DNA of 54,863 nt from Candidatus Harrisonbacteria bacterium CG10_big_fil_rev_8_21_14_0_10_49_15 (GTDB lineage Bacteria; Patescibacteriota; Minisyncoccia; UBA6257; 1-14-0-10-44-23). Within the stretch, counting starts at the first letter, position 1. Each line of letters begins with the position of its first letter. A program made the position numbers and the translations under genes. Location: contig PFBD01000023.1 in NCBI GenBank assembly GCA_002773415.1, positions 37,084 to 91,946 on the forward strand. Direction: 5' to 3'. Of this stretch, positions 21,556 to 40,968 are shown in pieces. The notes beneath the pieces are model-generated. The model had not been told where the DNA came from. It did not search any database and worked only from the letters and a program-made list of their open reading frames with translations.

Positions 21556-22347
21556 ATGAAAAAGTCATACAATATATCTGAGCTTAAGCAGTTTTTAACC
21601 GATTTTGGCCTCACTAAAAAGCAGGCCGCCGTCTACCTCGCCTCCTTACAGCTTGGCCCGGTCTCCATCCAAGCCATCGCCAAAGCTGCCAAAACCCAGC
21701 GCACTAATCTCTACGATGCCGTGGAGGAGCTTATTGAGCGCGGCCTAATGGCCATTGTCCCCTTTGGCAAACGCAACCACTATCAAGCGCAAGACCCGAC
21801 CGCCCTCAAAAGCCTACTACACGAAAAAGAGCGCGCTCTTAAAGACACGCTCCCCCAGTTTGCCTCACTCTACGATGCCGGCGAAACCAAACCTCATATT
21901 CGCTACTACCCAGGCCTAGAGGGTTATAAGCAGGCCTACGAAGACTCGCTCACCACCACTGATAAAAAACTCATTGGCATTTTCTCCACCCAGTCAATGT
22001 GGGAAGTTATTGGCCGCCAGGCCGCTGACGACATGGTCACTCGCCGCATCAAAAAATGCATTGCCCTGCGCGTTATTCGTTCCAAAGTTGGCGAGCCCAA
22101 TCGCATTTACCCCAGTAGTCTTGGCGACTTACGCGAGATGCGCTGGGCGCCCAGTGGCATGGAGTTCCCTATCACTACCTACGTCTACGACAACAAGGTA
22201 ATGATTCTCTCCTCCAAGCGCGAGACCTTTGGTTTGATTATTGAGTCGGCAGACATCGCCGCCGCCCACCGCCACTACTTTTCTGCTCTGTGGCAGCTCT
22301 CTACCCCCGACCGCCCCGACTTCTGCCTGCCACAGTTTCAGAATTAG
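21556..22347 (+). CDS. TrmB-family transcriptional regulator
   Basis: 263 residues. It has an N-terminal winged-helix domain of the TrmB type (about 8-75, 'LTDFGLTKKQAAVYLASLQLGPVSIQAIAKAAKTQRTNLYDAVEELIERGL'), a short coiled coil (about 88-105) and a C-terminal effector-like domain (about 115-250, 'GLEGYKQAYEDSLTTTDKKLIGIFSTQ'). TrmB regulators in archaea sense sugars. In Patescibacteria such proteins are common but their ligand is not known to me. It may control itself and the divergent gene at 21378 through the GTCAA repeats. Confidence 0.8.
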   Translation: MKKSYNISELKQFLTDFGLTKKQAAVYLASLQLGPVSIQAIAKAAKTQRTNLYDAVEELIERGLMAIVPFGKRNHYQAQDPTALKSLLHEKERALKDTLPQFASLYDAGETKPHIRYYPGLEGYKQAYEDSLTTTDKKLIGIFSTQSMWEVIGRQAADDMVTRRIKKCIALRVIRSKVGEPNRIYPSSLGDLREMRWAPSGMEFPITTYVYDNKVMILSSKRETFGLIIESADIAAAHRHYFSALWQLSTPDRPDFCLPQFQN

Positions 22348-22618
22348 CCGGAATATCTCGGCCTTCAGAGTATTTATGCAGAATTGAGCTAATCAAAGTT
22401 TGGTATGGTAGCCCCTCGCGTATAGCCGCGGCTTTCAGTCTCTGTAAAGACCGATTAGAGATCCGAATGTTAATGCTACGCGTCTTGTTAAGCGTCTCCC
22501 GCGCAACCGCCTGGTATCGCGCCATCTCCTTCTTAAGATTTTTAACAGGCTTGTATTTGCCGGCTGCAAAATCTTTTTCTATTTTCTTCTCCTCTGCATC
22601 AAGCTTGATGTATTTCAT
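22301..22618 (-). CDS. CopG-type antitoxin of a BrnT-like pair
   Basis: 105 residues from ATG at 22618; an upstream in-frame start (22639) would lie inside the toxin gene. The N-terminal half (MKYIKLDAEEKKIEKDFAAGKYKPVKN region) resembles the toxin-contacting part of antitoxins. The middle has a ribbon-helix-helix DNA-binding motif, 'INIRISNRSLQRLKAAAIREGLPYQTLISSILHKY', typical of CopG antitoxins. The toxin stop lies 7 bases upstream, so the two are cotranslated. The last 47 bases overlap the convergent TrmB gene. Confidence 0.75.
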   Translation of the reverse strand: MKYIKLDAEEKKIEKDFAAGKYKPVKNLKKEMARYQAVARETLNKTRSINIRISNRSLQRLKAAAIREGLPYQTLISSILHKYSEGRDIPANSETVAGRSRGGRG

Positions 22619-22625
22619 ATGATTA

Positions 22626-22904
22626 TTACTTTTCATCAATAATATATTTCTTTGTTTCTCTTCGACTCGGATAAATGGTTTTTAGAAAAATTTTTTCATC
22701 GTCTTCTACAAAAGGAACTTTATACGCATAATTTTCTATATTAACGATGAAGATTTTCTGATTCGGATACCTTTTTATATTACTATGGTCAACTACAGTG
22801 AGCAACTTTCCCGACTCAATAGCAGCAACAACGTCTTCAAAGCTGACATCGCGAGTTTCCTTCAACCATTTATTTTTAGCCAAATCCCAATCAACGTATT
22901 TCAT
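22626..22904 (-). CDS. BrnT-like ribonuclease toxin
   Basis: 92 residues. The BrnT-type pattern is visible: 'VDWDLAKNKWLKETRDVSFEDVVAAI' at the start, a beta-rich middle with a His ('TVVDHSNIKRYPNQKIFIVNIENYAYKVPFVED') and an Arg/Lys-rich C-terminus ('TIYPSRRETKKYI'). BrnT proteins are RelE-fold ribonucleases. Toxin-first order with a CopG-type antitoxin behind fits BrnTA. It is expressed from the promoter/operator at 22916-22943 with an almost absent leader. Confidence 0.75.
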   Translation of the reverse strand: MKYVDWDLAKNKWLKETRDVSFEDVVAAIESGKLLTVVDHSNIKRYPNQKIFIVNIENYAYKVPFVEDDEKIFLKTIYPSRRETKKYIIDEK

Positions 22905-22949: not shown

Positions 22950-23507
22950 CTACGCCCGCTCGTAAGTCACAAAACTATACCCCTCGTGGTCCTCGCGTTC
23001 GGTCTCGCGCCACTCGTCCGTCTTTATCTCCGGGAAAAAGGCGTCTGCGCCTTCTACGTTCTGGTGCACGTGCGTTAGGTACATCCGGCCGGCATCGCAA
23101 ATTGTTTGGTCAAATATCTGCCCGCCGCCGATTCCATAAATATCCTCGTCCGGGTGCGCCTTCACTGCGTCTTCTACGCTCGGGTACACCTCCACCGAAT
23201 CCCATCCGTCATTCTGAGGCACATACCGAACCTGCCTGCCGGCAGGCAGGGAATCCCGAGATCCTTCACTACGTTCAGGATGACCAGGAGTATAATTTTG
23301 CTGTCGCGTAATCACAATATTCGTCCGATTCGGTAGCGGCTTACCTAGCCGCGCTACAATAGACTCAAAAGTCTTTCTCCCCATCAGCACGGTTTTACCC
23401 GAAGTGATTTTTTTAAAATGCTTCAAGTCCTCCGGTAAATACCAGGGCAGATCATTCTCTTTTCCTATTGCATTGTTTTCTGCGAGCGCAGCGACTAGAA
23501 TAAGCAT
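22950..23507 (-). CDS. folA: Dihydrofolate reductase with in-frame repeat insertion
   Basis: 185 residues from ATG at 23507; a start 30 bases upstream would lie inside thyA. DHFR reduces dihydrofolate to tetrahydrofolate with NADPH. Conserved parts are 'LVAALAENNAIGKENDLPWYLPEDLKHFK', 'GKTVLMGRKTFESI', 'LPNRTNIVITR' and 'IYGIGGGQIFDQ'. Typical length is about 160 residues. The excess is a segment beginning 'HPERSEGSRDSLPAGRQV' (about 75-100), encoded by a dispersed palindromic repeat (23208-23285) inserted between two strands. Divergent to the thymidylate-synthase-like gene with overlapping promoters. Confidence 0.93.
   Translation of the reverse strand: MLILVAALAENNAIGKENDLPWYLPEDLKHFKKITSGKTVLMGRKTFESIVARLGKPLPNRTNIVITRQQNYTPGHPERSEGSRDSLPAGRQVRYVPQNDGWDSVEVYPSVEDAVKAHPDEDIYGIGGGQIFDQTICDAGRMYLTHVHQNVEGADAFFPEIKTDEWRETEREDHEGYSFVTYERA
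23208..23285. repeat. Dispersed repeat inside folA, with nested 20-bp palindrome
   Basis: A 'gtcattctgagg...ttcaggatgac' repeat with inverted ends lies in frame within folA. Its middle holds the perfect palindrome CCTGCCTGCCGGCAGGCAGG at 23231-23250. Confidence 0.85.
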
Positions 23508-23520
23508 ATATAGAATTATG
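23505..23520. promoter_or_regulatory. Interlocked divergent leaderless promoters of folA and thyA
   Basis: The folA -10 box is CATAAT (rc of 23515-23520) with TGt in front, and its CAT is the complement of the thyA start codon. The thyA -10 candidate is CATATA (23505-23510), whose CAT is the complement of the folA start codon. Each lies 7 bases before its ATG. Confidence 0.5.
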
Positions 23521-24348
23521 ACACAGTTTGACTTCAAATATCGAGAGGCGCTCCGAGAGATAATGAATCACGGCTTACGCGAGCGCAACGAGCGTACCGG
23601 CCATGAGACCGTCGCCCTGCCCGGCCTGACCATCGCGATAGACGAGGGCTTTCCCCTGTTGACCCTGCGCAAGATCCCTATCAAGCTCTTCGTCGCCGAG
23701 CAGATCTGGTTTTTAACCGGCTCTAACCGCCCCGACCCATTTTTAACCAAGTTTACCCACATCTGGGACGACTTTACCGAAGCCGACGGCACTATCGCCG
23801 CCGCCTATGGATATCGCTGGCGCCACCACTTTGGCCGAGATCAGATAGGTGACCTGGTCCGCCTTCTTCAAAATGAACCCGGATCTCGCCACGGCGTGGT
23901 CATGGCCTGGGACCCGGCGGACGACGGCCTGGGCACCGGCACCAAGAAAAAGAACGTCCCCTGCCCTTTTACCTTCACAGTGACCATCATCGCCAATAAG
24001 CTCCACCTGCACAGTATTATTCGTTCTAATGACATGATGCTCGGCGCTCCGCACGACGCCGCCGGCTTTGGCCTGCTTCAACATCTGCTCGCCGCCAAGC
24101 TTGGCTACCAAGTTGGTACTTATACTCACTCCATCAGCAACGCTCATATTTACGACATCCACTACGACCAGGCTTGGGAGCTGATTGATCGGGAAAATGA
24201 CCATAAAGAGGTTTTTCTGGAGTGTCAGCCGGACTACTTTGATCGCGGTGAAAAAGGCGACGAATCCCTAGTTGATGAGATAGTTGAAAAAATAAACAGT
24301 CAGTATCACCCCCTCGGTCCGATTAAGGGCCTCAAGATCGTCTTGTAA
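23518..24348 (+). CDS. Thymidylate synthase family protein with Asp at the dUMP-selecting position
   Basis: 276 residues from ATG at 23518. Family residues: 'ERTGHETVALPG' (phosphate Arg), 'EQIWFLTGSNRPD', 'WDDFTEADGTIAAAYGYRWR', nucleophile Cys in 'KNVPCPFTF', 'IIRSNDMMLGAPHDAAGF', 'HSISNAHIYDIHYDQ'. E. coli ThyA reads PCHAFFQF and LGLPFNIASY. Here the His after the Cys is gone and the Asn that recognises the dUMP base is Asp (PHDAAGF). Asp at this position is known in dCMP hydroxymethylase, and Asn-to-Asp mutants of thymidylate synthase accept dCMP. The enzyme may therefore act on dCMP. Partner genes folA, dcd and a deaminase surround it. Confidence 0.8.
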   Translation: MTQFDFKYREALREIMNHGLRERNERTGHETVALPGLTIAIDEGFPLLTLRKIPIKLFVAEQIWFLTGSNRPDPFLTKFTHIWDDFTEADGTIAAAYGYRWRHHFGRDQIGDLVRLLQNEPGSRHGVVMAWDPADDGLGTGTKKKNVPCPFTFTVTIIANKLHLHSIIRSNDMMLGAPHDAAGFGLLQHLLAAKLGYQVGTYTHSISNAHIYDIHYDQAWELIDRENDHKEVFLECQPDYFDRGEKGDESLVDEIVEKINSQYHPLGPIKGLKIVL

Positions 24349-24406: not shown

Positions 24407-25069
24407 ATGGGCATTCTCGGTAAAACAGATATTAAGAAGTACATTAAAGAAGGGAAGATAATTCTTGATCCAGTCGCTGACCAGTTTCAGATCCAGCCAA
24501 ACTCTCTAGACCTTCGCGCCGGCTGGAACTTTTATGTACCTCAGCAGTGGCAGTACGGAGAGGCTGGTCGCACCGTCACTAGGCCCGACTACACAGAACA
24601 CAAAGCAAACAGCGACGACTTTAAGTTAATAAAACTTCGCCCTGGCCAGTACTTTGAGTTCCTACCCAACGAGTTCGCAATCGTCTCTACCCTGGAAAAA
24701 CTCAGCCTTAAAGCAAATGATTTAATGGCGCTCCTGTACCCGCGTAGCTCAATGATCCGCCGCGGCTTTGTAATTGAAAGCGGCGTTGTGGACGTCGGCT
24801 ATTCAGGTCACCTTACAATTCCCGTTTACAACGCCACCCCACAACCCCTGCGTCTATACCCGGGTGAGCGCATGTATCAGCTCGTCTTTCACACCTTAGA
24901 TACGCCACTTGCCGACGACGACGCCCAGCTGCACGGCGCTGTCAAAGCCAAGTACCAAGATGCCACCGCTCATAACCTGCAAGCGCGCACAGACAGTAGT
25001 GAGGAATTGGAGTTCATCAAAAGCGGCCAGCTAGAGAAAATAAAAGAGCAGTACAGGGCCAGCGAATAA
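24407..25069 (+). CDS. dcd: dCTP deaminase / dUTPase-family protein
   Basis: 220 residues. The trimeric dUTPase-like fold is shown by 'QIQPNSLDLRAGWNFYVP' (N-terminal), 'EFAIVSTLEKLSLKANDLMALLYPRSSMIRRGF' and 'ESGVVDVGYSGHLTIPVYNATPQPLRLYPGERMYQLVFH'. The RSS and the 'DVGYSG' segment match dCTP deaminase, which makes dUTP from dCTP. A bifunctional or dUTPase activity cannot be excluded. It stops 4 bases before the next deaminase gene, so the pair is an operon feeding pyrimidine nucleotides to the thymidylate-synthase-like enzyme. Confidence 0.85.
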   Translation: MGILGKTDIKKYIKEGKIILDPVADQFQIQPNSLDLRAGWNFYVPQQWQYGEAGRTVTRPDYTEHKANSDDFKLIKLRPGQYFEFLPNEFAIVSTLEKLSLKANDLMALLYPRSSMIRRGFVIESGVVDVGYSGHLTIPVYNATPQPLRLYPGERMYQLVFHTLDTPLADDDAQLHGAVKAKYQDATAHNLQARTDSSEELEFIKSGQLEKIKEQYRASE

Positions 25070-25073
25070 ACCC

Positions 25074-25844
25074 ATGTCAGAATCAATTCATGGCGCAGGC
25101 AATCAGCGTCGGTTGGACGAGTACGTCCCTAGCTGGGGCACTCAGGAAACTGTATCCGCGGATAACGAATTCATGGCGCGGGCTCTCGCAGAGTGCGAGC
25201 AGATGAGAAAAGAGCACCCGGAGGTCAGCAATCCGGCCGCCGCTGTAATTGTTAAGGAAGGGAAGGTCCTTGCTGTTGCTAGAAACGGCTCCGCCCATGA
25301 AAGCTTTTGCCCGCGCATCGCCCTAAACTGCAAGAGCGGCGAAGACTACGACCTCTGCCCGGACCACTGCCACTTCAGCAATCATGCAGAGCCAGCTGCC
25401 GTGAAAGCCGTCCAGTCCGCCGGCGTTGATGCCACTGGCGCCGAGCTATACCTCGCCGGCCATTACTGGGCCTGCGCGCCATGCTGGGAAGCCATGAAAA
25501 GCATTGGTATTACAAAGCTTTTCTTACTAGACAACGCTGAGCAGGAGTACAAAAAGAAACGCGATGCCGGCAAGCAGGGCGGCGGCCGCATATCCCACCC
25601 ACTCTATGTTGAGTATCGTGGCTTAAATTCAGAAGCTGTGCGCACCGCGCTGGAGAAAGTAAATATCTTCCCGGCTGATCCCGCTCATGAGCCCAGCTTC
25701 ACCATCGTCTTAGCCGGCGGCGACCTGCCCGAGCCAGGGTCTAAGCTCCCGGTCTTTGACTATCGCGACCAGACTGACTATCGCCACGTCTTAGTCGAGC
25801 TGAGTCGTGAGCTAGACAACTTTCCAGAGCTGACCCGCCGCTAG
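25074..25844 (+). CDS. Cytidine/dCMP deaminase-family zinc protein, long form
   Basis: 256 residues. The CDA fold has 'NPAAAVIVKEGKVLAVARNG', zinc/catalytic 'NHAEPAAV' (His and Glu) and 'YWACAPCWEAMKSIGITKLFLLD'. The usual PCxxC is replaced: CxxC is formed by C-A-P-C, three residues earlier than expected. An insert between strands carries extra Cys/His (SFCPRIALNCKSGEDYDLCPDHCHF), perhaps a second zinc site. The C-terminal 90 residues are not part of the core fold. dCMP deaminase is the likely activity from the context (4 bases after dcd, near the thyA-like gene), but the substrate is not proven. Confidence 0.75.
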   Translation: MSESIHGAGNQRRLDEYVPSWGTQETVSADNEFMARALAECEQMRKEHPEVSNPAAAVIVKEGKVLAVARNGSAHESFCPRIALNCKSGEDYDLCPDHCHFSNHAEPAAVKAVQSAGVDATGAELYLAGHYWACAPCWEAMKSIGITKLFLLDNAEQEYKKKRDAGKQGGGRISHPLYVEYRGLNSEAVRTALEKVNIFPADPAHEPSFTIVLAGGDLPEPGSKLPVFDYRDQTDYRHVLVELSRELDNFPELTRR

Positions 25845-32157: not shown

Positions 32158-35100
32158 CTACCTCAGTACCACCCGCACCTGATGCTCTACCTGATCATCT
32201 TCCAGTTCCAGGGTGTTACCACGAGTCTGCGTGCTATCAATAAATACGGCGCGAACACCACTACATTTGCCAAGAGGATTTTCAATTGTAATAACGTAGT
32301 CCGTCTGCCCGTACCGGTAGGTTATTTCACACTCCTTCCAACTGCTTGGAATACACGGCTCAATCTGCAGGAGTGCCCCCTGCTTTTTCAAGCCAAAAAT
32401 ATACTCTACCAGCGTTCTGTAAAACAGGCCAGCCGACCCGGTATACCAAGTCCACCCCCCTCTTCCTGCATACGAAGGCTCAGTGTAGACCTCAGAAGAA
32501 ACCACGTACGGCTCCACCCGATAACGATCTGCCTTTTCTTTACTGTCGCTCCGCTTAATTGGGTTAATCAGGTCTAGTAGAGCCATCGCATCGTCCCCCC
32601 GGCCCTGCCTGCAAAGTGCTTGCACTAACCAAATGGCCGCGTGATTGTACTGCGCCCCGTTTTCCCGCACACCGGGCGGGTAGTCTTTTAAGTAACCCGG
32701 GTTTAGCTCGCTCTTCTCTAGCGGCGGGGTTAGTAGACGGATAAACTGCTTATCTGGAGAAAGCAGTGCCAAGGCCGAATCAATCGCGAGCGCCGCCCGC
32801 TCCGGTTTACTGGCCCCACTCAGCACAGCCCAAGACTGAGCAATGGAGTCTATCCGGAACTCATCATTCAGCGAAGATCCCAAGGGCGCGCCATTGTCTA
32901 GATAAGCGCGTTTGTACCACTTGCCATCCCAGGCGTGGTCCTCCAGCGCGGTTTGCAGTCCCGTCTTAATATCAACAAAGCGCCTGGCGCGCTCCATATC
33001 AGAGCGTTGCTTTGCGACTGGCTCAAACTGGTCAAGCACTGTAAACAAGAACCAACCCAGCCAAACACTTTCTCCCCGCCCGCGCACACCGGCGTTATTA
33101 AGTCCGTCGTTCCAGTCCCCCTTACCAATTAGTGGCAGGCCATGCTCGCCAAAGCGTAGGCTGTGCTCTATTGCTCGGACAGCATGCTCGTAAAGCGAAT
33201 GTGATTCAGTAGTAGTCTCCGGAACACCAAGCCACTCCGGCCGCTCAATAAAGTGCGGCACCGGCGCTATTAAAAATGGCAGCTCTTCGTTCAAAATAGC
33301 ATAGTCTCCGGTGTGGGTAACGTAAAAACTAAGCACATACGGCAGCCAAAGCGCGTGGTCTGAAAAAAGTGCCCGCACGCCAAAATTATTATGCTCGTGC
33401 CACCAAGCCATCACGTCACCTTCTTGGAACTGGTGCCGCGCCGCTCGCAAAATATGCTCTCGCACTATCTCCGGCCTGGTCCAAACAAAAGCCATCACGT
33501 CTTGTAGCTGATCACGAAAACCATATGCGCCACTCGGCTGATACAAACCGGTCTTACCAAATAGCCGCGCGCTCGCAGTCTGGTATAAGAGCCAAGTATT
33601 ACCAAGCAGGTCCAGGCTCTTGTCCGGTGTTTTAATGGCGACACCTTCAGAAAGCTCATCCCAGACGGCGCTTGTCTCGCTCCGAGATTCTATCGCCGGC
33701 CGCGCTCCGTAGCGTTCAATCAACTCCCGGGCCGCCACCTCGCTCTCCGCATCACCTAGCAAAATGGTTATCTCAACCGTGCTACCGGCTGGTAGCTTAA
33801 TAGTGGACTGCATCGCCGCCGCCGGGTCAACCGGTTGGTCTATCGCACCGCTAAGCCGGTCATTACTAAGCGCCGCCGGCGCCTCCGGGCTACCGCAGTG
33901 GCCAAAGAATTCATGCCGGTCATTACTGAACGAAATCATTCCACTTGAAACAAACACAAAAGCCACTCGCCCCGCCAAGTCATTCCGCAGTGGATTTTGC
34001 ATAAAGATCGCCCCCAGCGAGTCATCGGTCCAGATCCGCAGTCCATGCCGGGTCGTGTCGCGTTGGGGTCCAAGAGTCGGCTCAATTAGCGTGAATAAAG
34101 AAAGCCGACAATCTTCATCTCCTTTGTTCGTTAAGCTAAGCTTTTGTATTTTAACCGTGTCATTAACAGCCACAGTTACCATCAGATCCTGGCGGATCTT
34201 CTCGTGAGCGGTGGAGAATGTAGAGTAGCCTCGTCCATGTCTTACTTCGTAGTTGTGCCCTCGCCGCGCCGGTGCCGGTGTAGCGCTCCAAAACTCCCCG
34301 GTAGAGTCGTCGCGCAGATAAAGATACTCCCCTGTTCGCTCTACAAGAACATCATTATGCCACGGGGTTAAGCGATTATCGTAACTGTCTATAGACCAGG
34401 TTGTCGCGTTCCCTTCCGCGGTAACAATTGTCCCAAAGTTTGGCCGGCCGATGATGTTCGCCCAAGCCACCGGCGACCGGTCTTGATCTGTAAGCGTCAT
34501 GCAGTACTCGCTTGTTTCCGGATCAAAACCGCCATACCCATTTTCAAATAGTTTAGCCGGCAACTCAGCAGATAACTTGGAAAGACTCGCCTGCGGTTTT
34601 GCCCGCTGGCCTGCACGCGCTACCAGTGGCACAACTGGCACAGCGTCAGTTGGCACAACCAGGCGCTTAAGCTGATCGCTTAAAGAGCCCTGCTTGCTAT
34701 CCAGCTCTACCGAAGCCGCCGAGCGAATCATCGCCTCTTCCTCCGGCTGGATAAGCTTAGTTCGGATATGATAAATTCCGCCAAGCGACTCTTTTACGGA
34801 CGAGCGGTTGTAGCTGATAATAAAGTCTATTTCGTCTTCCAGCGCTTTTATGTAGCCAACCGGGTAGTCATTTAAAATAGCGATATCTAAAGTAACGCCC
34901 TTGTAGCGAGCGTACTGTTCAAAGGCAAGCAGTCGCCGCGCGAACCAGATGTCTTCAAGGTCATGCACTTTGGCGACTAAAAGCGGTAGTGTTCCGGTCA
35001 GGCCGTGCTGCCACAAAGCGGCAATGGTTCCATTTTCCAAGCTCTGATTACTGCTCTGACCAGGCTTGCGCCGCCCCGTCATCACTCTGCTCAAAAGCTC

Positions 35101-38100
35101 CTGGAAAACCAGCGCGTCTTGAGACGCCGTCGCCAGCTTCGCTAATGTTCGGCTACTCTGCTTGTTGGTATTTTTCACCACACCATGACTGCTGGCCTCG
35201 TCCCGATATTTTTTCAAAAGCACTCGCAGCGCGTCTGCAGTCGGCGCGACCGCCGTGATAAAGGCTAGGCGCACCGACTTGCCTGCCGGCACCACAACCG
35301 TCTTTTTTAAACTCGCGACCGGGTCCAGTGGGTAGTTCGGAATCCCTTCTTGCGTCGCTCTCTGAAACAGGAGCGGCGTGCTTAGCGAGCCACTTCGGTC
35401 CACGCAGTCCTCACGAAGCACTCGCAACTCCGCATCCGCCTTACCTAGTTTGGTCAGCGTGTGTCCAAGGGTAATTCCCTCACCCCGTTTCTTTTCGGTG
35501 TTACCATTACTGCTACTGTTACTTCGGTCATTCCGGCTAAAGATTATCGCCTCATTTTTTTGGTCCGGCTCTGCCCGGACAAATAGTTTTTGAAACATCG
35601 GGTGGTGGCGGATCTGCCCCGGCTCCGCTAGTGCCACCTCGCCATAACTGGCCACCTCCAGCGTGTACAGCGTCTCGCCACTGTTAGTCAGGGTCAGCTC
35701 TCTGATCTCCACCGGCTCATCCGGGGCGACCGTCACAAACAACTCTGACTCCAGAGTCCCCCGCTCCGTCGTGAAGACAGCCGCGTTCTCTTTAAACTGA
35801 ACAGCATACTTGCCGCCCGCCACCGGCAAAGGCGTTGGCGACCAAATTTCCCCACTTGCCTTGTCTCGAATGTAAAGCGCCAAACCGCCGCGCTCTAAAA
35901 CAAAATCATCTTCGCCCTTGAAAAGTTCCGTCTGCAGATAACTGCTTCGGCCAACTCCGGCACTGCTAATAACTGTCTGCCAGCTGCCATTACCCAAATA
36001 AGCGTACTCCGGTTCGCCGGCAAACGCATCCGGCGTTCGGTGCGGGTCGCTCTCACTACTGCTCGCCGGCAGATACTTTAGCGGCAGATGATTGCGAAGC
36101 ACTCGTGTCTTTGGCGGCACCACATTTGGCATTTTTTCATCAAGTAGTAGTGCGACCGAACGCAGGCGCGGGTCCGCCTCGCTTAGCTTGTGCAGGCGGT
36201 TGTCGCGCAAAGTGTTCAGCAGCGCCGCCATAATAAATCCTTGGTGGTGGGCGTAGTGCACCTCCGCCCTCACCCCTCGGGCGCGTTTTTTGTGGCTGTC
36301 TTTTGAAAAGTCTAGCGCGTCATAAAATCCATAGCGGCTAAACATCCCGCGCCGCATCATTCGGCGAAGATTCGCAACCGCTCTGGACGGCTTGGTAAAC
36401 GGTAGCGCCAGGAAAGTTGTGTAAGGAGCGGCCACAAGATAGTTATTCAAATTCCGTTTTAAACCAAGCTCCGGCACACCAAAGACCTGGTACTGATAGT
36501 TTTGATTGATGTCCAAAGTGTCATAAGCCGACTCACCAATCCCCCACGGAACGCCATGGCGAGCACCATATTTAATATGCGCCCTGGTCGCGTTTGTTGC
36601 CGTCGCCCCAAGTACACTGAGCGGACTGGTCTTAAAGAAGAGCAGTGTGGTTAAGTATTCAAAAAGTGACCCCCCCCAGGAAGAGAGCAGCGGTCGCCCG
36701 CGGCCATTAATAAGTTTTCGGCTCAGGTAAAACCAGTGTTTTTTCGGTGCTTGGTTCTTTAGAATCGCAATCAGGCTGATGATATTTGTCTCTGAAGCCA
36801 TCAGGTTGTAGTGGACCGTATCCATGGTCTCAAAAGCGGCGTTGTAGCCCACTCGGAACAAGCCCCGCTCCGGATTATACAAGAAAGAAAAGTCCGCCTC
36901 TTCGAAAAGTTGTTGGCATCTGGTTTCAAGTCCCGCAAAGCGCTCTATCTCCCCGGCCGCCTGTCTGCCACTTTCTTGAACACTCCTCATCAAATCACTA
37001 AGCCAAGTTCGTAGTGCCTCTTTTGTAATCAGCGGCAGCTGAGAATCTTTAATGCTGTTATAAAGGTCAAGACTATCCAGCCTGGCAACAAAGCGTCCGT
37101 CCGCCAGTTCTGCAAGGCTCACCGGCGTGCCAACCGCATCGGTAAAGACGTGGAGCTGTCGCGCAAACTGTTCGCTCCCGGGTTCATGTTGGACCGGCGC
37201 GCTTAGCGCGGCGGCGGTCGCAAATGGTAGCAGTGAGTCTATTAAGGCTCGGATCTGCTCGTCTGCTTTACCAAGACGCAGCAGCCAGTAATCAATATCA
37301 AAGAACTCTTCAATGCCGTGGCGAACTGCCACCTCTTCTAGCAGGGTCTGCCACTCCACTCGTTTGCTTGCCAGCTTGTCCAAGAACAAGAGCAACTCGG
37401 CCGGCCGCGGCGCTTGCCACTCAAGCTCTTTGGCAAGCTGAGCGGCCTCTTTGATAATTCGCTGCAGCACGATCTTCTTTTCTGCGTCGTGAGATATTTT
37501 CAGTAGATCCTCCGCCGAGTCGCGCGTGGCCAAAAGCATGTCTTGGATGCCTTGAAGCATCGCCGTATCAACAAGCGGCGTTTGAGTAAGCGATCGCAGT
37601 CCCTGGGCTAACAGAAGCAGGCTAAGGGAGAAGTTAGCGCTATCAACTGAGGACACATACTTAGGAAAGACCGGATTCTTTGTCTTCAGGTCATACCAGT
37701 TGAAGAAGTGCCCGCGCCAGCGCTCCATGCTCTCTAGCGCCCCCATAGTCGCGCTTATCCGATGCTCAAAATCCTTCAAACCAAGATAACCAAATTCATA
37801 TGAAGCAAGCAGGCTTAAAAGCTGCATGCCGATATTTGTTGGCGAGGTCGTTGTTTGGATCTGGTTGTGCCGCTGCTCACTTAGGTTGTCCGGAATAAGC
37901 CAGTGATACTCCGGCAGGCCGTGCTCAATAAAGAACCGGGCAGTTCGGCAGGCAACCATCCGCAGGAACCGTTCTTGCCGCGCTGAAATATCCGGCGCTC
38001 GGGTTTCGCCGTCTTTGCCATATTCGTTTTGACTTATCAGGTAAGCAAACAGCGGCGAGGCCAGCCATAATAAACCCCAAGCCGCCAGGACCACACTCAT

Positions 38101-40968
38101 CATCCGATCAGTTATCAGCAGCGCCGCCGCCACTAAAAACAAACCGATCGGCTGCGTGCTCCAGAGTGCCAAGGCCACTTCATGCAAGCGGTCGCTTGCT
38201 CGCGCCGCCACTGCGCTGGCCGAGTCCCACTCTAGCAACTTTCTCTTGGTGACTAACTGGCGGACTAGCGCGCTCCCAATCGCGCCCAAAGTGACGATGG
38301 TCTGATGAAGCAGAAACGAGGCCTGGAGCAAGATCCGACCCAAGATGGTCGCTAGCAGTTCCTTTATTAGAAGAAGGTATCGCTTTGGATGCTCGTTGGT
38401 AGTAAATTGACTAAAGCGAAGCAGCCACTGCAGCAAAATAGGTAAGCTTAAAAAGATAGCCACGCCGATTTGCCAAAACCAAAGCCCGGTCACCACCCCC
38501 GCCCAGCTCGCAATCAGTATCAGTAGTAGGGCCGGCCGGATAAGACTCCGCCGCAGATTATCCGCGATTTTCCACCGGTCAATTACCGCGAACCGTTCTT
38601 TGGCTCTCAGGATCCAGCTCACTATCTGCCAATCCCCGCGGATATGCCGATTCAGCCGGCGCATGTACTCGTGGTAGCGCTGCGGAAACTTCTCAAATAT
38701 CTGGATATCGGTCGCCATCCCCACTCGAGCATAAATTCCCTCTAACAGATCATGACTAAGTACCAAATTCTCCGGGATCTTATCGGCCATGACCTGTTCA
38801 ATAATATCAATGTCATAAATACCCTTACCATAAAAGATACCGGCTCCAAACAGGTCATGATAAAGATCTGTGCTTGTGGTGGAGTACGGGTCTAGCCCAA
38901 CCGTAAAAGAAAAAAATCTGGAAAAAACCGAGCGGTGAGCGCTGTCCAGCTCAACCGTTACCGCCGGCTGGATTATCCCATAGCCTTCAGTAATAACTCC
39001 GCGTGCTTCGTCAAAGTAAGGGCGGTGTAGTGGATGGCTTATGCAGCCGATAAGCTCGCTCGCGCTCTCCCGCAGCAGCTGCGTGTCTTCATCTAAAGTA
39101 ATGACATAGACAATGTCTTTTGGTATTGCTCGCCGCTGCGCCTCCGTTAGCTGATAGCTGGTTTGTGTATCTCCTCTCAACAGCTTATTCAACTCGCGCA
39201 GCTTACCGCGCTTTCGCTCCCACTCCATAAAGACTCCCTCCTGCGGGTTCCAGCGCCTGCTCCGCGGCAAGAAAAAGAAACGCAAACCCTGCTTACGCGG
39301 GTAGCGCTTATTCAGCTCCGCGACCATCAGCTGAGCGTAGGCTAACAGCTCCGCGTCAGTTGGCAGCGTTTCGGAGTCGGCATCCGGCAGTCCGCCAAGC
39401 AGAGAAAAAAATATATTCTCATCCCGGTTGCTTAAAAAGTGGTTTTCCAACTTCCGGGCCAACTCATCAATAACCGCCTTGCTTCGCAAAACAGCCGGTA
39501 TCGCCACCATGGTTTTGTGCTGATCCAGCACGCCCTTAGTTAAATCCAGCCGAGGCAGTACCCGCGGCGGGATTATCCGAGCCACCAAGGTATTGGTAAG
39601 AGTCAAAGCGATCTCGCTTAAAATAAGTAAGAGAGCGAGCCAAACCACGACCAAAACACCAAGCGGCTGCCCAGATGAAACAGCTGGAATAAGCGGGCTT
39701 ATCAGTATGCCCAAGCCAATGGTCAGCGCCGCTGCCGGCCCAAAGTAAGTAGCGTATGGATGGCGCTTTATTAATCTTCGAACTCGTTCAACTATCCGCG
39801 GCCGGTAGTGCAGTTCCCGCTCAATTAGCGCTCGACCTTCGCCGAGCAGATAGTAACCAACATGGTGCGTCCGCGGATCAGTGGTTGCGTCAGCTTGGGC
39901 ATCCCTCGCGAACCGCAACGCTAGCCGAGCCACCTCCACCTCATGTACGCCACTGCGCTCGGCAATACTAACGGCCAGCGCCCTGAACAAGCCCCGGCTT
40001 TTTGCTTCAGTCAGGTGATAGAACCGTGCCGGATCTTCAAAAAGAACAGTATCAATACTGTTTACCTCTGCCGTAAAATCATCCCAAAGAAACTGATTAA
40101 TCCAGTGCAGGCTCGCCAGATTGTTAGTTATCAAGTGCGAGTTGGCCTCCCGAGAGCTTCGCTCCAGCTCGCTTAGATTAGCACTATCAATCCCCTGTTT
40201 TTGAAAGTTGAGCCGGATCCACTGTTTTATCGGCGCCGTCGTTTTCAGGCCATCGCGAGTCAGTTTCTCTTGCAAAAAAAATCCCATATGCAGAGGCAAG
40301 ACCGGATACTCATCAGTCAAGCTGTTAATGAGCTCAGAAAAGTTTGGGTTCTTACGTTCTGCCTCTTTGTGTATCTTTTCGTGCCAGTACCTAGACTGCT
40401 CATACTGCTTCAGTGATGTCAGGCTCCGCCTCATCAACTGCTGGATGTTCTCAACCAGCAGCGTTTTCAGGGCGTTTGGCAAAATAGTTAGCTCCAGAAC
40501 AGAAAGAGGCGCGCTCTGTTGGTACGCCTCAATAAAAGTAGCCAGGGTCTTTTTCGTAACAACGTTCTTGGTCGTCTTTAGAAGCTTCTCAAAAACATAG
40601 TGTACTCGCGGCAGCGTGCGCCCTTGGCTGGTGGTTATCTGGGGCAGCTGTCTAAAAACCTTTTTCGGGATACTCTTCTGAATATCACTAAGCGCCGCCT
40701 CTATGATATAGAAGTTGTCTAAGATCCACTCCATCTCATGCGTGAGATGATTAGCTCTTTTTATCTCCTTGGTTAGGCGTTTGAAAAGTCGATAGGTGTC
40801 TCGGTGCTGCGATTGCAACGAGGCGTAAAATGAGCTCGCCGTACCCGATTCAAGTACTGATGCTGTCGCGCTGCCCAGACTAGCACCAAGTTGAGCGATC
40901 TTCTTTTTTAAAACTGGGTCAAGTTTTTTGTTCTGCCGGTTGTTCGGGTTGTCCTGTGAGTTTGGCAT
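32158..40968 (-). CDS. Giant cyclic beta-1,2-glucan synthase-like protein (GT84 + glycoamylase + GH94)
   Basis: 2936 residues, unbroken. An N-terminal helical region is followed by membrane helices near 405-465. The GT84-type glycosyltransferase (about 480-800) has 'VYVITLDEDTQLL' near 626, 'LVLSHDLLEGIYARVGMATD' and 'RGDWQIVSWIL'. More membrane helices lie near 815-1005. A glycoamylase domain (about 1360-1570) has 'YNPERGLFRVGYN' and 'WGIGESAYDTLD'. Two GH94 beta-sandwich regions follow (about 1650-1900 and 2150-2420). The GH94 catalytic barrel (about 2430-2936) has 'GFRDQLQDVMAF' (catalytic Asp) near 2480 and 'FQEGDVMAWWHEHNNFGVR'. NdvB/ChvB of rhizobia have this order and make cyclic glucan at the inner membrane. 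It overlaps the dedA gene by 50 bases. It is very large for a reduced genome. Confidence 0.88.
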   Translation of the reverse strand: MPNSQDNPNNRQNKKLDPVLKKKIAQLGASLGSATASVLESGTASSFYASLQSQHRDTYRLFKRLTKEIKRANHLTHEMEWILDNFYIIEAALSDIQKSIPKKVFRQLPQITTSQGRTLPRVHYVFEKLLKTTKNVVTKKTLATFIEAYQQSAPLSVLELTILPNALKTLLVENIQQLMRRSLTSLKQYEQSRYWHEKIHKEAERKNPNFSELINSLTDEYPVLPLHMGFFLQEKLTRDGLKTTAPIKQWIRLNFQKQGIDSANLSELERSSREANSHLITNNLASLHWINQFLWDDFTAEVNSIDTVLFEDPARFYHLTEAKSRGLFRALAVSIAERSGVHEVEVARLALRFARDAQADATTDPRTHHVGYYLLGEGRALIERELHYRPRIVERVRRLIKRHPYATYFGPAAALTIGLGILISPLIPAVSSGQPLGVLVVVWLALLLILSEIALTLTNTLVARIIPPRVLPRLDLTKGVLDQHKTMVAIPAVLRSKAVIDELARKLENHFLSNRDENIFFSLLGGLPDADSETLPTDAELLAYAQLMVAELNKRYPRKQGLRFFFLPRSRRWNPQEGVFMEWERKRGKLRELNKLLRGDTQTSYQLTEAQRRAIPKDIVYVITLDEDTQLLRESASELIGCISHPLHRPYFDEARGVITEGYGIIQPAVTVELDSAHRSVFSRFFSFTVGLDPYSTTSTDLYHDLFGAGIFYGKGIYDIDIIEQVMADKIPENLVLSHDLLEGIYARVGMATDIQIFEKFPQRYHEYMRRLNRHIRGDWQIVSWILRAKERFAVIDRWKIADNLRRSLIRPALLLILIASWAGVVTGLWFWQIGVAIFLSLPILLQWLLRFSQFTTNEHPKRYLLLIKELLATILGRILLQASFLLHQTIVTLGAIGSALVRQLVTKRKLLEWDSASAVAARASDRLHEVALALWSTQPIGLFLVAAALLITDRMMSVVLAAWGLLWLASPLFAYLISQNEYGKDGETRAPDISARQERFLRMVACRTARFFIEHGLPEYHWLIPDNLSEQRHNQIQTTTSPTNIGMQLLSLLASYEFGYLGLKDFEHRISATMGALESMERWRGHFFNWYDLKTKNPVFPKYVSSVDSANFSLSLLLLAQGLRSLTQTPLVDTAMLQGIQDMLLATRDSAEDLLKISHDAEKKIVLQRIIKEAAQLAKELEWQAPRPAELLLFLDKLASKRVEWQTLLEEVAVRHGIEEFFDIDYWLLRLGKADEQIRALIDSLLPFATAAALSAPVQHEPGSEQFARQLHVFTDAVGTPVSLAELADGRFVARLDSLDLYNSIKDSQLPLITKEALRTWLSDLMRSVQESGRQAAGEIERFAGLETRCQQLFEEADFSFLYNPERGLFRVGYNAAFETMDTVHYNLMASETNIISLIAILKNQAPKKHWFYLSRKLINGRGRPLLSSWGGSLFEYLTTLLFFKTSPLSVLGATATNATRAHIKYGARHGVPWGIGESAYDTLDINQNYQYQVFGVPELGLKRNLNNYLVAAPYTTFLALPFTKPSRAVANLRRMMRRGMFSRYGFYDALDFSKDSHKKRARGVRAEVHYAHHQGFIMAALLNTLRDNRLHKLSEADPRLRSVALLLDEKMPNVVPPKTRVLRNHLPLKYLPASSSESDPHRTPDAFAGEPEYAYLGNGSWQTVISSAGVGRSSYLQTELFKGEDDFVLERGGLALYIRDKASGEIWSPTPLPVAGGKYAVQFKENAAVFTTERGTLESELFVTVAPDEPVEIRELTLTNSGETLYTLEVASYGEVALAEPGQIRHHPMFQKLFVRAEPDQKNEAIIFSRNDRSNSSSNGNTEKKRGEGITLGHTLTKLGKADAELRVLREDCVDRSGSLSTPLLFQRATQEGIPNYPLDPVASLKKTVVVPAGKSVRLAFITAVAPTADALRVLLKKYRDEASSHGVVKNTNKQSSRTLAKLATASQDALVFQELLSRVMTGRRKPGQSSNQSLENGTIAALWQHGLTGTLPLLVAKVHDLEDIWFARRLLAFEQYARYKGVTLDIAILNDYPVGYIKALEDEIDFIISYNRSSVKESLGGIYHIRTKLIQPEEEAMIRSAASVELDSKQGSLSDQLKRLVVPTDAVPVVPLVARAGQRAKPQASLSKLSAELPAKLFENGYGGFDPETSEYCMTLTDQDRSPVAWANIIGRPNFGTIVTAEGNATTWSIDSYDNRLTPWHNDVLVERTGEYLYLRDDSTGEFWSATPAPARRGHNYEVRHGRGYSTFSTAHEKIRQDLMVTVAVNDTVKIQKLSLTNKGDEDCRLSLFTLIEPTLGPQRDTTRHGLRIWTDDSLGAIFMQNPLRNDLAGRVAFVFVSSGMISFSNDRHEFFGHCGSPEAPAALSNDRLSGAIDQPVDPAAAMQSTIKLPAGSTVEITILLGDAESEVAARELIERYGARPAIESRSETSAVWDELSEGVAIKTPDKSLDLLGNTWLLYQTASARLFGKTGLYQPSGAYGFRDQLQDVMAFVWTRPEIVREHILRAARHQFQEGDVMAWWHEHNNFGVRALFSDHALWLPYVLSFYVTHTGDYAILNEELPFLIAPVPHFIERPEWLGVPETTTESHSLYEHAVRAIEHSLRFGEHGLPLIGKGDWNDGLNNAGVRGRGESVWLGWFLFTVLDQFEPVAKQRSDMERARRFVDIKTGLQTALEDHAWDGKWYKRAYLDNGAPLGSSLNDEFRIDSIAQSWAVLSGASKPERAALAIDSALALLSPDKQFIRLLTPPLEKSELNPGYLKDYPPGVRENGAQYNHAAIWLVQALCRQGRGDDAMALLDLINPIKRSDSKEKADRYRVEPYVVSSEVYTEPSYAGRGGWTWYTGSAGLFYRTLVEYIFGLKKQGALLQIEPCIPSSWKECEITYRYGQTDYVITIENPLGKCSGVRAVFIDSTQTRGNTLELEDDQVEHQVRVVLR

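Follow-up and report, generated by a model that had tools for sequence, protein, structure and literature searches.

In the textbook account, de novo thymidylate synthesis begins with dUMP, in its ThyA and ThyX versions alike. The chemistry considered here, in which a cytosine nucleotide is methylated before it is deaminated to a thymine nucleotide, has phage precedent, and the route is so far known only from a bacteriophage. In phage Xp12, a member of the Bradleyvirinae, all cytosines are 5-methylcytosine (PMC11946847, PMC9206674). A deoxycytidylate methyltransferase is made in Xp12-infected cells (PMC8543423), and the Xp12 deaminase needs no host function to turn 5-methyl-dCTP into dTTP (PMC12088426, citing Wang and Ehrlich 1982; Kuo et al. 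1982, 'A new thymidylate biosynthesis'). The final deamination step is chemically ordinary, since dCMP deaminase also accepts 5-methyl-dCMP (PMC12088426). The first step has a counterpart in mutant work on thymidylate synthase (TS): the single change N177D is enough to shift ThyA toward methylating dCMP, yielding 5-methyl-dCMP (cited in PMC8670742), and in a metagenome study of modified phage DNA, positions 177 and 147 best separated the TS of modified contigs from those of unmodified ones (PMC8670742). Other members of the fold are hydroxymethylases, which release tetrahydrofolate (PMC6400193, PMC5175136). Among them are the T4 dCMP hydroxymethylase gp42 and the CMP hydroxymethylase MilA, which we compared from the literature only; MilA is a TS-fold enzyme that acts on a cytidine monophosphate, as is proposed for the protein described below, but its substrate is a ribonucleotide, it carries a large extra helical C-terminal domain and it serves antibiotic biosynthesis (PMC5175136).

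The window analyzed here, a stretch of 54,863 nucleotides, comes from a Candidatus Harrisonbacteria genome (884 kb, 91% complete) of the Patescibacteria (CPR), whose relatives, judged by kinship or by TS, all belong to the CPR. At 23518..24348 on the forward strand it encodes a TS homologue of 276 aa, for which we propose dCMP methyltransferase activity. Membership of the TS superfamily PF00303 is shown by a profile match above the curated cut-off (1.6e-50, 172 bits vs 24.3) together with the catalytic Cys. The score falls under most NCBI ThyA equivalog cut-offs. An AlphaFold2 model gave a confident TS fold (pLDDT 92) that solved TS structures match with a TM of about 0.8, which is a fold match only and does not address the geometry of base contacts.

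We aligned the protein with E. coli ThyA, T4 dCMP hydroxymethylase and phage TS. The motif LGAPHDAAGF stands against LGLPFNIASY of E. coli ThyA, with Asp180 (codon 24055..24057, +) at the position of N177, the base-reading residue. Cys149 aligns with the catalytic C146 and is followed by Pro150 where E. coli has H147 (both codons at 23962..23967, +). The protein has Asn at E. coli position 143, and the other catalytic residues examined are all retained (E58, W80, Y94, R126, R166, S167, D169, H207 and Y209), as is a C-terminal tail (PIKGLKIVL) whose Ile274 is invariant across the family. Lacking both Asn177 and His147, the protein fails the criteria for a canonical dUMP-specific ThyA. An earlier note on this DNA had claimed a TS relative with the Asp typical of dCMP enzymes and a Cys motif altered to PCP with no His after it. 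Both claims held: the Asp at 177 is common to the T4 enzyme, and the Pro sits at E. coli H147. It also described the Cys motif as two residues short, which failed, as VPCPFTFTV and APCHAFFQF of E. coli align without gaps and the preceding loop is longer, not shorter.

A scan of 84,980 species genomes recovered 38 relatives of this protein, all from CPR where a lineage is named and spread over Nomura-, Uhr-, Moran-, Doudna-, Harrison-, Vogel-, Kerfeld- and Gracilibacteria. Asp177 is present in 38 of 38 and Pro147 in 37 of 38, the family having P, rarely L or V, at the latter position. Chance can be ruled out as the source of Asp177, because the residue is invariant in 37 aligned family members and in every further member found. 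Sampling the phylum evenly (380 genomes) gave 15 members (about 4%), the window's genome included. Members in that sample scored below 1e-120, and the next match, at 1e-52, was a canonical ThyA with Asn177 and His147, the residues found in canonical CPR ThyA. No intermediates between the D177 TS and canonical CPR ThyA were found among the 38 relatives and the 380-genome sample. Outside cellular genomes, six putative viral contigs (IMG/VR; L160-L165) encode the same D177 TS with its C-terminal tail, and the family deaminase described below lies near it in two of the six; these contigs could possibly be phages of CPR bacteria.

A maximum-likelihood tree built from 92 TS places the CPR D177 proteins as sister to a clade of siphophage TS (AXL1/Mallos/Donnerlittchen) with support of 98/82. 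The bootstrap is rough and this placement not fully settled, and T4 sits on a long branch. Neither canonical ThyA (96/85) nor T4 dCMP hydroxymethylase falls with the CPR and phage D177 clades. Several sister-clade phages belong to the Bradleyvirinae, and AXL1, a close relative, stands in for the Xp12 sequence in our comparisons. Its TS motif, PCPTSF, also has Pro directly after the Cys. D177 and N143 are common to the CPR family and the Xp12-type phage TS, with P147 in nearly all. In the sister-clade phages the TS gene adjoins that of a dCMP deaminase, and most of them also have a pyrophosphohydrolase and dihydrofolate reductase (DHFR) in the row, which then reads pyrophosphohydrolase-TS-dCMP deaminase-DHFR. 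The likeness to the Xp12 route comprises a sister TS clade with shared active-site residues, an adjoining deaminase and DHFR, and deamination of a methylated cytosine nucleotide to a thymine nucleotide. The differences are that the phage also makes 5-methylcytosine DNA and deaminates at the triphosphate level, and that Xp12-type phages have a tailless TS, a MazG-like pyrophosphohydrolase and a different deaminase, to which that of the CPR is merely remotely related. We had considered the C-terminal tail as proof of methylation and dropped it, as Xp12-type phage TS are tailless, yet Xp12 makes 5-methylcytosine. With ThyA (EC 2.1.1.45) the CPR enzyme shares the fold, the catalytic Cys, folate and phosphate residues, the tail and a DHFR partner; it differs in Asp for Asn177, Pro for His147, low equivalog scores and a separate clade. 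We also observed D177 TS beside a deaminase, and usually DHFR, in phages of Achromobacter, Ruegeria, Variovorax, Rhodobacter, Janthinobacterium, Xanthomonas, Pseudomonas and Stenotrophomonas (L060-L066, L069). These are mostly annotated as ordinary thymidylate synthases, one as 'ThyX-like'; we infer from Asp177 and the gene neighbors that they are probably dCMP methylases or hydroxymethylases.

Unlike the Xp12 enzyme, the CPR D177 TS is the only TS of its cell. The earlier note had proposed checking the genome for another thyA or thyX; we ran this search and found a single PF00303 gene, with neither a second TS nor ThyX in the window's genome. Across D177 genomes, exactly one PF00303 match was found in 39 of 40, the remaining genome having two fragments of a single gene, and ThyX was found in none of 39. 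Two genomes, G003 and G061, gave identical results and are probably one, so that counts of 40 represent 39 different genomes. Thymidine kinase scored above its cut-off in just 8 of the 40. Thymidylate kinase is present in 38 of 39, and by coordinate comparison lies less than 5 kb from TS in 21 of 39, usually as the sole copy; in the window's genome it is located away from the TS locus. Most D177 genomes have no completeness figure, and single absences are accordingly weak; it is the overall pattern that counts.

A zinc deaminase of the dCMP deaminase superfamily, which we propose to be a 5-methyl-dCMP deaminase, is encoded at 25074..25844 (+; PF00383, 9.4e-8; HAE, CxxC and GHYWACxxCW motifs). 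In its family, the HxE and CxxC zinc motif is invariant (H97, E99, C127 and C130), which meets the test for the superfamily, and GH(W/Y)W(A/C)CxxCW is a distinctive motif. The solved structures (PDB) nearest to the family profile are dCMP deaminases, and the structure model itself is weak (pLDDT 75). As PF00383 missed this deaminase in the genome search, although hmmscan finds it, we scanned 80 CPR genomes with the family's own profile (A2). At E <1e-30 the family deaminase was detected in 36 of the 39 D177 genomes, whereas the 41 other CPR genomes gave no match at that level, their best being 2e-18 (Fisher p 1e-19, which overstates independence as the genomes are related). Five of 26 deaminases examined carry a fused C-terminal PF05014 domain resembling nucleoside 2-deoxyribosyltransferase or 5-hydroxymethyl-dUMP N-hydrolase, and in an Uhrbacteria protein (L034:5381-6292) the nearest solved relatives of this domain are 5-hydroxymethyl-dUMP N-hydrolases. 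The C-terminal extension of the window's deaminase looks degenerate.

Between the TS and deaminase genes, at 24407..25069 (+), lies a gene for a Dcd/dUTPase-fold protein (PF22769, 3.7e-31). It shares the fold and most motifs with Dcd and bifunctional Dcd/dUTPase. Glu138 of E. coli Dcd is required for deamination. Dcd keeps this residue, whereas the window's protein has Pro139 at the site, as does the corresponding protein in every D177-TS genome carrying the gene (Pro in 25 of 25, against Glu in all five Dcd proteins from CPR genomes outside this group). We therefore rejected a true dCTP deaminase. From its sequence the protein is likely to be a dCTP/dUTP pyrophosphatase giving dCMP, an activity that remains inferred.

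DHFR is encoded divergently from TS at 22950..23507 (-; PF00186, 1.2e-47). Of the 38 relatives, 32 have a DHFR-like gene in the locus, and in several its product scores about equally with RibD_C. Such a partner would be expected if the TS methylates, since a methylating TS makes dihydrofolate, unlike hydroxymethylases. The window's DHFR gene also contains, at 23231-23250, a dispersed palindromic repeat (CCTGCCTGCCGGCAGGCAGG) that helps to form what looks like an in-frame insertion of some 25 aa and resembles palindromic elements within Rickettsia genes. Five copies occur in the window vs 0.01 expected by chance, and its 12-nt core has 25 exact copies in the genome vs none for a reversed control. 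Beside the DHFR gene, at 22301-22904 (-), is a pair resembling a BrnT-type toxin (under the Pfam cut-off) and a small antitoxin-like protein, and elsewhere in the window a very long ORF of 2936 aa occupies 32158-40968 (-).

The sequence data show the active-site residues, the lack of any other TS gene, the linkage and co-occurrence of the genes, and the phylogeny. On these grounds we consider it likely that the D177 TS carries out the methylation in a 'methylate first, deaminate last' route to dTMP, and that this is the sole de novo route to thymidylate in these Patescibacteria; every activity and the order of steps are inferred. From dCTP (and dUTP) the Dcd-fold neighbor would release the monophosphate by hydrolysis. 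With methylene-tetrahydrofolate as the donor, the D177 TS would then add a one-carbon unit at C5 of dCMP and reduce it, giving 5-methyl-dCMP and dihydrofolate, the latter to be recycled by DHFR. The neighboring zinc deaminase would convert 5-methyl-dCMP to dTMP, its preference for the 5-methyl substrate being a guess, and thymidylate kinase would carry dTMP on toward dTTP. Occasional quenching of the intermediate by water may yield 5-hydroxymethyl-dCMP and, after deamination, 5-hydroxymethyl-dUMP, which the domain fused to some deaminases could destroy. The earlier note had raised a route from dCMP through 5-methyl-dCMP to a thymidine nucleotide, and had placed a deaminase and DHFR next door. 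The neighbors were confirmed, and the route is now the best-supported reading, because the enzyme is the sole TS of the genome, is sister to the Xp12-type phage TS clade and has a neighborhood of deaminase, DHFR and, among many of its relatives, thymidylate kinase. The source of dCMP remains open in the 14 of 39 D177 genomes, mainly Nomurabacteria, that have no Dcd-like protein, and this counts against the proposed pathway, as do the distant location of thymidylate kinase in the window's genome, the merely remote kinship of the deaminase to the Xp12-type one and its weak structure model.

The most serious rival is the ordinary order, in which the deaminase converts dCMP to dUMP and the TS methylates dUMP, with Asp177 either doing no harm or offset by P147 and further changes. 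Gene content alone fits this reading, a dCMP deaminase beside TS being the layout of the ordinary route too, and the only TS in the cell must serve thymidylate synthesis. Against it, N177D favors dCMP in characterized TS (PMC8670742), the Asp is invariant over a deep and diverse clade along with N143 and, nearly always, P147, and the sister clade is that of the Xp12-type phages, of which Xp12 itself produces a dCMP methylase; there is no evident reason for a dUMP enzyme to fix Asp. We regard the ordinary order as unlikely. The methylate-first order is favored because Asp177 is invariant, because positions 147 and 143 are altered as in the Xp12-type clade, and because the neighbor has lost the dCTP deaminase residue; we do not go beyond calling it likely, because gene content alone cannot separate the two orders.

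Two further readings would direct the product elsewhere, and we consider both very unlikely. A dCMP hydroxymethylase like T4 gp42, serving DNA modification or nucleotide chemistry, is suggested by the TS fold with Asp at 177 common to the T4 enzyme, and by the domain resembling 5-hydroxymethyl-dUMP N-hydrolase on some family deaminases. However, the T4 residue Asp145, whose proposed role is to orient the pterin so that hydride transfer is avoided (PMC6400193), corresponds to position 143 and is Asn in the CPR TS; the CPR enzyme has a folate-covering C-terminal tail that T4 gp42 lacks; linkage to DHFR, which gp42 does not need, implies production of dihydrofolate; gp42 lies far outside the CPR clade in the tree; and the cells would be left without an evident de novo source of dTMP. 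Alternatively, a 5-methyl-dCMP/5-methyl-dCTP pathway could place 5-methylcytosine in DNA, as in Xp12, with the deaminase as a side branch. Xp12 does have 5-methylcytosine in place of all its cytosine, and its subfamily is the one found in the sister clade (PMC11946847, PMC9206674); moreover, the gene is also found on putative viral contigs. Yet the family is the sole TS in cellular genomes and is linked to thymidylate kinase, and full replacement of cytosine meets no evident cellular need. A modified-cytosine pathway in general, the alternative offered in the earlier note, is likewise less likely: no DNA-modification gene was recognized among the immediate neighbors, and it too would leave no evident de novo source of dTMP.

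In the open-licence full-text literature searched, we did not find a D177-type enzyme described as the sole TS of cellular organisms. The evidence tips, by a small margin, toward a bolder version of the methylate-first reading, in which a widespread cellular group makes all its de novo dTMP from dCMP via 5-methyl-dCMP and never from dUMP, its dCTP deaminase activity lost, while in some members a fused domain like 5-hydroxymethyl-dUMP hydrolase may clear a side product. If the proposed pathway is true, dCMP-first methylation in cells would mean that a DNA base can be built by a different logic, and a phage-type pathway would be serving as core metabolism. The dUMP/dUTP pool would be avoided on the main path, and a new problem would arise, that of keeping 5-methyl-dCTP out of DNA. 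By profile, such genes pass for an ordinary thyA and dCTP deaminase, and metabolic models of CPR bacteria that use those names would therefore be wrong.
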